From positions 1 to 15,808 of the forward strand of contig JAFGWO010000210.1 of assembly GCA_016937135.1 (NCBI GenBank): a stretch of 15,808 bases of DNA, written 5' to 3'. The translations under genes were made by a program, and so were the position numbers. The DNA is from Pseudomonadota bacterium (GTDB lineage Bacteria; BMS3Abin14). Positions 4,514-15,808 of the stretch are shown here, piece after piece. The notes under the pieces were generated by a model. That model ran no database searches. It worked only from the letters and a program-made list of their open reading frames with translations, and was not told where the DNA came from. Numbering within the stretch: position 1 is the stretch's first letter; each line of letters begins with the position of its first letter.

Positions 4514-4676
4514 GTTGATGACCCTGCGAAAAGTCATCAACGCGGCCCGGGTGCGGGCCGCCCGGATCCAGGACCGGAATGGCAAGTCGTGGATCCGTGA
4601 GGCAAGGGAAAACCACGTTTTTTCCCTTTCCGGGAAGCGTTAAGTTCCGCGTTGAACTTTTCGCGACCCTGTCAAC
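4514..4676 (+). repeat. Structured intergenic repeat, copy A
   Basis: This is one of two related copies, the other lying inverted at 15533-15694. It consists of consecutive inverted repeats: stem 4514-4522/4533-4541 (9 bp), 4542-4548/4555-4561 (7 bp, GCGGCCC), 4563-4569/4591-4597 (7 bp, CGGATCC), 4606-4612/4620-4626 (7 bp, GGGAAAA) and 4642-4647/4654-4659 (6 bp, AAGTTC). It ends with ACTTTTCGCGACCCTGTCAA (4656-4675). The longest stretch shared with copy B is 19 bases (4596-4614), and the terminal motif shares 16. It sits between the pldA stop and the start of the DM13-like gene and could serve as pldA's 3' end. It contains a 41-codon ORF (4518-4643). A REP/MITE-like element or a structured RNA are both possible. 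Confidence 0.8.
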
Positions 4677-14249: not shown

Positions 14250-15371
14250 TCAGATTCGCATGGGCATAATGACAGCCAGGTAATCCTCCTCCCCTTTCTG
14301 GGACAGGACGCAGGGACTAAGCTCGTCGTTGATGCTGATTTCCACCGTATCGGATTCCATGGAAGTCAGGGTGTCCAGCATGTACCTGGCGTTGAAGGTG
14401 ACCTCCAGGGCATCCCCTTCGAATTTGGCTGGAACGGTTTCCGTGGCCATCCCGAGATCGGGGTTGTTGATATGGACGGTCATTTTATCCGGGCCGAAGG
14501 AGAAACGGACGGCCCGGGAACGTTCCGAAGACAGGAGCTGGACCCTGCGGATCGCATGGATCATATCTTCCCTTGACACCTGCGCCGTTACCTTCCTGTC
14601 CTCCGGGATGACCTGGGCGTAGTTAGGAAAGGCCATATCGATGAGCCGGGTCGTCAGGACCGTGGAGTCTTTTCTGAAAACCCCGTGCTGCTTCTTGAAG
14701 TCCACCTCGATGATGGCGTTTTCCCCCTCCTCCTCAAGGAGCCTTCTTACCTCATTCAGGGACTTTCTGGGGATGACAACGCTCTCCCCGCCCCGGACGT
14801 TTCCCGCCTTCTTCTCCACCAGGGCCAGCCGGTGCCCATCGGTGGCAACCAGCCGCAAGATGCCCTCCCCGTTCTTTTCCTCCATCTGGAAAAGTATTCC
14901 TGTCAGGTTGTACCTCGTCTCGTCGGTGGAGGCGGCGTAGATCGTCTTGCGGATCATTTCCCTGAGATTTTCCGCGTCCAGGGTGACGAAATCCCCGTCC
15001 TCGAAGGAAGGGAGGGAAGGGTAATCCCCGGAAGGCAGCCCTTTCAGCTCGAAGGAAGAGGTTCCGCATGTGATCTGAGCGACATTTTCCCCCAGAACCT
15101 GCAGATCGATCTCCGTCTCGGCCGGAAGTTCCTTTATGATCTCGAAAAGCTTTCTTGCCGAGAGGGTGACGGATCCTTCGCTGCTGATCCTGGCTCCGAC
15201 AAAACCGCTGATGCCGACCTCCATGTCGGTCGCCTGCATCCGCAATTTCTCACCGCTCCCTTCAATGAGGACATTGCTCAATATGGGAACGGTGTTTTTC
15301 CTTTCCACGATGCTCTGGACCCGGGAAAGCCCCTGGAGGAAATCCTCTCTGTTAACGGAAAAACTCAACAC
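14250..15371 (-). CDS. dnaN: DNA polymerase III beta sliding clamp
   Basis: This 373-residue protein is the ring-shaped processivity clamp. The three-fold repeated fold is seen with family motifs: NREDFLQGLSRVQSIVERKNTVPILSNVLIE in domain I, SFELKGLPSGDYPSLP, TRYNLTGILFQ and ATDGHRLALVEKK in domain II, FPNYAQVIPED at the start of domain III, and the C-terminal LAVIMPMRI (usual MPMR ending). The start is the GTG at 15369-15371, six bases after a perfect AGGAGGT (15378-15384). An ATG 33 bases upstream lies before that site and would add eleven residues not found in the family. It is the first gene of the minus-strand operon dnaN-recF-gyrB-gyrA-pilZ-lipoprotein. The sequence between it and the origin-like segment contains a candidate promoter and repeat copy B. 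Confidence 0.98.
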   Translation of the reverse strand: MLSFSVNREDFLQGLSRVQSIVERKNTVPILSNVLIEGSGEKLRMQATDMEVGISGFVGARISSEGSVTLSARKLFEIIKELPAETEIDLQVLGENVAQITCGTSSFELKGLPSGDYPSLPSFEDGDFVTLDAENLREMIRKTIYAASTDETRYNLTGILFQMEEKNGEGILRLVATDGHRLALVEKKAGNVRGGESVVIPRKSLNEVRRLLEEEGENAIIEVDFKKQHGVFRKDSTVLTTRLIDMAFPNYAQVIPEDRKVTAQVSREDMIHAIRRVQLLSSERSRAVRFSFGPDKMTVHINNPDLGMATETVPAKFEGDALEVTFNARYMLDTLTSMESDTVEISINDELSPCVLSQKGEEDYLAVIMPMRI

Positions 15372-15463
15372 CTTCCGACCTCCTGATTCCGGCGGGCGGT
15401 CCAAAAAAATCCCCGCTCTTTATCCCATGGAAAACCGCAGGGTTCCAATACGGAATTACGCTT

Positions 15464-15493
15464 ATTTTACCCGAAGGTGATACCGCAAAGCAA
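15464..15493 (-). promoter_or_regulatory. Candidate dnaN promoter
   Basis: On the minus strand TTGCTT (15488-15493) precedes TAAAAT (15464-15469) with an 18-bp spacer. The -10 matches five of six bases but the -35 only three. A transcript from near 15457 would have a leader of about 86 bases before the GTG. A second weaker pair (TTGGAA, then GATAAA nearer the gene) is also visible. Transcription from dnaA beyond the window is also likely. Confidence 0.3.
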
Positions 15494-15532
15494 CACTTAA
15501 CACTTTTTCTTAAAAGATGCATTCTTTGACAA

Positions 15533-15694
15533 CATTGCCAGGGTCGCGAAAAGTCTAATCCGAGACTTTTCGCTCCACGGCAAGGGGAAAACGCGGTTTT
15601 CCCTTGCCTCACGAATCAAGGACTTACGACAACGGTCCTCGATTCGGGCAGCCCGTACCCGGGCCGCTCCGATGGTTTTTGGATAAACCATCAG
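15533..15694 (-). repeat. Structured intergenic repeat, copy B
   Basis: This is the inverted counterpart of copy A, lying between the origin-like segment and the dnaN promoter. The same five stems are present: 15671-15678/15685-15692 (8 bp), 15648-15654/15661-15667 (7 bp with one G-U in the RNA of this strand), 15612-15617/15641-15646 (6 bp, with inner AGGAC/GTCCT), 15579-15591/15597-15608 (12 bp with one bulge) and 15546-15556/15563-15573 (11 bp, perfect, GCGAAAAGTCT). Several stems differ from copy A at both arms so that pairing is kept. An additional copy of the terminal 20-base motif lies at 15695-15714, 160 bp from the one at 15535-15554 (18 of 20 identical), followed by a further AAAAGT/ACTTTT hairpin to about 15730. 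This looks like the end of a preceding unit in a head-to-tail arrangement. Confidence 0.8.
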
Positions 15695-15736
15695 CTTGAC
15701 AGGGCCGCGAAAAGTCCGCTCCGGCACTTTTTTCTC

Positions 15737-15808
15737 GATCTTAAATCTTTTAATGATTTGAATAATAAAACAGTAGAAGAAGCAGTAGGGCCTGGGGATT
15801 CGTGGAAA
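15737..15808 (-). other. Origin-of-replication segment: DnaA-trio-like triplets and AT-rich unwinding region, cut by the window edge
   Basis: Read on the minus strand from the edge, TTTCCACG (15801-15808) fits a DnaA box (TTTTCCACA type) with its first base outside the window. A GC-rich block follows (15788-15797), then six consecutive NAG triplets on the plus strand (15771-15788: CAG TAG AAG AAG CAG TAG), then an AT-rich stretch (15737-15770). Box, GC block, trios and AT-rich DNA in this order and polarity is the basal unwinding system described for bacterial oriC, where DnaA spreads from the box along trios (3'-[G/A]A[T/A]-5') to open the strands. Four of six triplets fit strictly. The position upstream of dnaN matches the dnaA-dnaN intergenic origin of Bacillus subtilis, whose trio region is similar from memory. 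Only one possible box is visible. Confidence 0.6.

Follow-up and report, generated by a model that had tools for sequence, protein, structure and literature searches.

The basal unwinding system (BUS) of Bacillus subtilis lies between dnaA and dnaN, the position also taken by the module described here. In the excerpts consulted of two studies of this system (PMC6669920, PMC10721633), tandem co-oriented boxes (DnaA-box 6/7) are followed by a short GC spacer, A-centred DnaA-trios and AT-rich DNA; box-bound DnaA starts an ATP-bound filament that extends onto the trio strand, and opening follows. The portion consulted of a third paper (PMC8287927) reports predicted BUS modules in 1755 of 2070 bacterial origins, with a peak of the box-to-trio spacer at 10–13 bp. 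We analyzed a 15,808-nt stretch of DNA, hereafter the window, from an uncultured lineage. Its right end is very probably the dnaN-side part of a chromosomal origin that lies in the dnaA–dnaN spacer and is opened via boxes and trios. We take the module to be an oriC BUS of the kind already known, and its mechanism not to be new.

The window corresponds to the entire contig C59; the assembly comprises 292 contigs (1.71 Mb, 81% complete). Since the contig is shown in full, position 15808 is the contig end; the window thus ends at the putative melting site, not begins there as the initial annotation had it. Read inward from 15808, the minus strand shows TTTCCACG, AATCCCCA, GGCC, CTA CTG CTT CTT CTA CTG and TTTTATTATTCAAATCATTAAAAGATTTAAGATC, so the truncated box, GC-rich block, triplet run and AT-rich tract that had been described as pointing toward dnaN are all present. 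The distal DnaA-box match, TTTCCACG (15801–15808, minus strand), has lost its first base at the contig end. Compared as NTTTCCACG with TTATCCACA, it carries two mismatches when the lost base is ignored, and an unfavourable base there would make three. In tandem with it, and overlapping it by one base, is a proximal degenerate DnaA-box position, GAATCCCCA (15793–15801, minus strand), with three mismatches, where up to four are allowed for the second box, itself optional in a BUS. A short GC spacer, read as GGCC (15789–15792, minus strand), separates the boxes from six DnaA-trios at 15771–15788. These sit on the plus strand (3'-GAT GAC GAA GAA GAT GAC-5'; minus strand CTACTGCTTCTTCTACTG), and the run holds six C-led triplets, seven triplets in total, in a single register. 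From the distal box to the first trio is 12 bp, which lies within the 0–16 bp limit for a BUS. Past the trios, the AT-rich tract (15737–15770) spans 34 nt with 85% A+T, a content reached at 5 of the 15,775 34-nt positions of the window, the tract itself included; past the trios, melting presumably starts here.

Several controls were run on this arrangement. A pattern of six CTN triplets with 17 specified positions occurs at two sites in the 1.71-Mb assembly, including the module, compared to eight sites for the reversed pattern. None of 300 dinucleotide-shuffled windows contained six consecutive CTN triplets. A looser pattern (TNCAC, 8–22 nt, at least four CTN) has a single occurrence in the window, and 4 of 300 shuffles contained it. 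The strand carrying boxes and trios does not fold unusually (z 0.93), and Rfam gave no matches to the window at gathering scores.

The likeness to the B. subtilis BUS, as set out in the excerpts of PMC6669920 and PMC10721633, extends to the tandem co-oriented boxes, the short GC spacer, the A-centred trios and the AT-rich DNA. Unlike the system in those excerpts, the boxes here are weaker, with the proximal one decayed to GAATCCCCA in the window, and beyond the AT tract comes a hairpin repeat. The module also resembles those predicted in PMC8287927, so far as the consulted portion describes them: a box with at most two mismatches, a spacer of at most 16 bp (at 12 bp, inside the 10–13 bp peak), at least three NAN trios and GAT as the box-proximal trio. 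The DnaA protein of the source genome agrees with this picture. Its nearest solved structure is B. subtilis DnaA (entry 8btg, E = 5.4e-138), for which the consulted part of PMC10721633 gives Asn187, Ile190, Ile193, Arg202 and Glu228 as contacts to trio bases. By hand count from the 8btg alignment, the source-genome protein has N, I, L, R and E at these positions; four of the five are identical and the fifth is conservatively changed (I to L).

The gene setting fits an origin. In the window, dnaN, recF, gyrB and gyrA all lie on the minus strand, recF being named from its place in the gene order and an SMC_N match. The dnaN gene (14250–15371, minus strand) has a GTG start at 15371, an AGGAGG at 15379–15384 and three sliding-clamp Pfam domains. 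The initial annotation had looked to dnaA beyond the edge as its main refutation check; we ran this check and located dnaA on the minus strand of another contig, C235 (94–1473), where it is the genome's only match for the DnaA ATPase family. On C235, dnaA points toward its own contig end, and dnaN adjoins the window edge. The opposite flank of dnaA carries rpmH, rnpA and yidD, recognised by eye, as well as yidC and mnmE. Many bacteria share the order rpmH-dnaA-dnaN-recF-gyrB. In relatives, the placement of the module beside dnaA, between dnaA and dnaN, is seen directly; in the source genome, it follows from two facing contig ends.

At its end, C235 has 93 nt of spacer, which align to the dnaA-side part of the relatives' spacer without gaps, apart from those that an insertion in one locus of genome G010 introduces. 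A cluster of DnaA boxes had been expected beyond the window's edge, and what C235 holds is box-like: CTGTCCACA at 31, TAATCCACA at 59 and TTGTCAACA at 83, with two, one and two mismatches, respectively, and no perfect TTWTNCACA in C235:1–93 or in the window. In the spacer alignment with relatives, 46 columns separate the C235 end from the window's first base, suggesting that about 46 nt of spacer are missing between the two contigs, and the distal box would be completed across this gap. At the 10 loci of relatives with dnaA in the stretch, the distance from dnaA to the trios is 169–260 nt; G005 was left out of this measure, as its contig starts short of dnaA.

Conservation was assessed in the 12 genomes of a phylum search, which represent one family and eight genera; this family is the sole one of its phylum among the genomes searched. 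Matches to dnaN were found in 11 of the 12 (none in G006, two in G010), giving 12 loci. The module is present in register upstream of dnaN at all 12 loci, in 11 genomes; that of G004 was found once a longer upstream stretch was used, and the second G010 locus is L046. In relatives with an intact spacer, dnaA and dnaN flank the same module, in support of the proposed placement of the origin. On the trio strand, 67 of 72 triplets are A-centred, compared to 20/72 and 16/72 in the other two frames, and the count is 43/48 once the two anchor-fixed triplets are taken away. The five exceptions all fall on the third triplet of the run (AAC in G008; TAC in G001, G007 and both G010 loci). The two dnaN-origin loci of G010, on contigs C3 (L046) and C12 (L019), possibly stem from two related strains binned together.

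Which box is better preserved differs among these loci. The distal position reads TTTCCACA in G003 and G011, and the distal box is the better one (one or two mismatches) in these two genomes, G009 and the window. The proximal position is the better one, with two mismatches, in G001, G007 and one G010 locus, where it reads CAATCCACA or AAATCCACA. Neither box has two or fewer mismatches in G002, G004, G005, G008 and the other G010 locus. This variation in box preference indicates that the GC-rich block is in part a decayed box. The block named in the initial annotation, AATCCCCAGGCC, is indeed GC-rich; it also includes the proximal DnaA-box position, which is AATCCACA in some relatives.

The family scans covered the last 1000 nt for G004 and 405 nt for the window. 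A strict scan, which required a box within two mismatches and a run with four or more C-led triplets, detected 4 of the 12 family loci. A loose scan detected 11/12 in the forward and 1/12 in the reverse direction; the one missed, G008, still shows the motif in the alignment, with the third triplet interrupted. Outside the family, we scanned up to 600 nt upstream of dnaN at 63 loci (70 less 7 of the family). Here the strict scan gave 1/63 forward, 0/63 reverse and 0/63 shuffled, and the loose scan gave 15/63 forward and 5/63 reverse. By these scans, then, the module is no general trait of regions upstream of dnaN, and the case for a wide spread of the BUS rests on the literature.

Sites for parS lie near several of these loci. 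A perfect parS (TGTTTCACGTGAAACA) is found at C235:6213–6228, about 6.2 kb from the C235 edge, and two more copies are on contig C289. In G001, G003, G004, G007, G009 and both dnaN contigs of G010, parS lies 6–10 kb from the trios. In G005 and G011 the sites are on contigs other than that of dnaN, G010 has an extra one-mismatch site on contig C65, and parS-like sites of G002 and G008 lie about 1 Mb from dnaN. Global GC skew was sampled (20 × 20 kb each) in the single-contig relatives G001, G008 and G002. In all three of these N-joined records the sampled cumulative minimum falls away from dnaA–dnaN (near 1.2–1.35 Mb in G001, 1.3 Mb in G008 and 1.76 Mb in G002), with nearly flat curves in G008 and G002. 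The 'chromosome' records (CP070719 for G001, CP070682 for G002, CP070698 for G008) have frequent N runs, that is, they are joined contigs: the sampled 400 kb contain 14 runs in G001, 68 in G008 and 76 in G002, nearly all of them 100 long among the runs listed. Tests that depend on contig order, such as GC skew, are therefore unsafe in these genomes, and given the 100-N joins and the distant parS-like sites of G002 and G008, we give the sampled skew little weight. Within one 20-kb stretch, the skew minimum lies at dnaA–dnaN in both G001 and G008. In the source genome, skew near the end of the window ranges from −0.10 to −0.15, and on C235 it is +0.117 over the first 1.5 kb and negative from 1.5 to 5.25 kb.

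On the dnaN side, a conserved block, AAGTGTTAAGTGTTGCTT (15488–15505, minus strand), overlaps a −35-like TTGCTT (15488–15493), with TAAAAT (15464–15469) 18 nt further; block and TAAAAT are likely the dnaN promoter. The exact block AAGTGYTAAGTGNYRCTT occurs in 10 of the 12 genomes, in each of them beside dnaN, with a variant in G002 and none found in G006; it is possibly an operator or promoter element. At 7 of the 12 loci, which belong to 6 of the 11 genomes, 19–34 nt lie between the trio end and AAGTGYTAAGTGNYRCTT; elsewhere the distance is 70 (G009), 88 (G002), 151 (G005), 265 (window) or 660 nt (G004), such that the junction of melting tract and dnaN promoter carries inserts in 5 of 11 genomes. 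The block stays with dnaN and the trios stay with dnaA, which marks them as separate units. A second AAGTGYTAAGTGNYRCTT copy in G005 (C5:28508–28525, L173) precedes a response-regulator-like gene. Beside this second AAGTG block lies CCACGAATCCCC, which has seven matches in 5 of 12 genomes (reversed control, one); we considered it as the mark of a DnaA-controlled promoter and rejected it, as its five other contexts, inspected by eye, have no common promoter-like setting.

In the window, the insert between AT tract and dnaN promoter block contains a hairpin-array repeat (15535–15736), which lies outside the melting module. A second copy is at 4529–4675, and units are about 160 bp apart. The repeat has at least 51 matches in the source genome and is present in 11 of the 12 family genomes (match counts in G000, G003 and G005, from 40 scored candidates, are 'at least' values). 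One strand folds with a z of −6.81, and 0/200 shuffles fold as well. The window copy was aligned with single copies from 15 of 20 stretches; this alignment predicts 42 pairs, six of them with pair-keeping changes on both sides. A similar piece forms the parS-side end of C235, just past parS, and in G005 the repeat lies at a contig start (L016/L152, C41:1–80), on the dnaA side of the origin boxes.

The gap between the contigs bears on the distal box. Conceivably, C59 and C235 join directly via a shared 10-mer, CTGGGGATTC, in which case nothing is missing, the distal box differs and the module is still an origin. By eye, the final 10 nt of C235 (minus strand) do equal bases 8–17 of the window's minus strand. 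However, the flanks of the 10-mer differ (TTTCCAC versus CCCGGAT), an exact end-overlap test requiring at least 8 bases gave none, the relatives' spacer aligns with C235 at a position farther out, and a direct join would leave a dnaA-to-trio spacer near 96 nt, well short of the range in relatives. We regard this as unlikely; because the spacer alignment leaves 46 columns between the C235 end and the window's first base, the two 10-mers are better seen as related box-like sites than as an overlap. Alternatively, the triplet run and AT tract would be chance, or the leader of the dnaN promoter, with no melting role and the origin elsewhere. The sampled skew minima of G001, G002 and G008 point that way, and the boxes are degenerate; this degeneracy, together with the interrupted third triplet at 5 of 12 loci, also counts against reading the module as an origin. 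Yet the register is kept at every locus, the trios stay by the dnaA-side boxes despite inserts of up to 660 nt before the dnaN promoter block, parS is close by, and the six-CTN pattern is rare in the genome, all of which makes a chance or leader origin of the run very improbable.

The hairpin repeat raises a further question, namely whether it is a working part of the origin, such as a barrier limiting the bubble. It lies directly against the AT tract (15736/15737), its folding is far stronger than that of shuffles, and it sits at a junction where 5 of 11 genomes carry inserts. On the other hand, it is a dispersed repeat with many copies in the source genome, and 6 of 11 genomes have 19–34 nt at the junction and no insert, leaving such a role with hardly any credence. 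Mobile hairpin DNA might also insert preferentially at this junction in the family, with the array here setting the dnaN-side limit of the bubble and so influencing its end point or the site of helicase loading; this, too, is quite doubtful, if slightly less so.

We thus favour an origin in the dnaA–dnaN spacer opened via boxes and trios. By analogy with B. subtilis and other tested species, DnaA would bind the tandem boxes at 15793–15808, and an ATP-DnaA filament would extend from them onto the plus strand, along the six trios from 15788 down to 15771. By capturing and stretching this strand, the filament would open the duplex toward dnaN, and the AT-rich tract (15737–15770) would melt next and take the helicase. 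The finding provides a sequence-defined, testable origin melting site for an uncultured lineage. In the comparison of 11 genomes, the trio register is kept and the dnaN-side DNA is not, which supports boxes plus trios as the core of bacterial origin opening.
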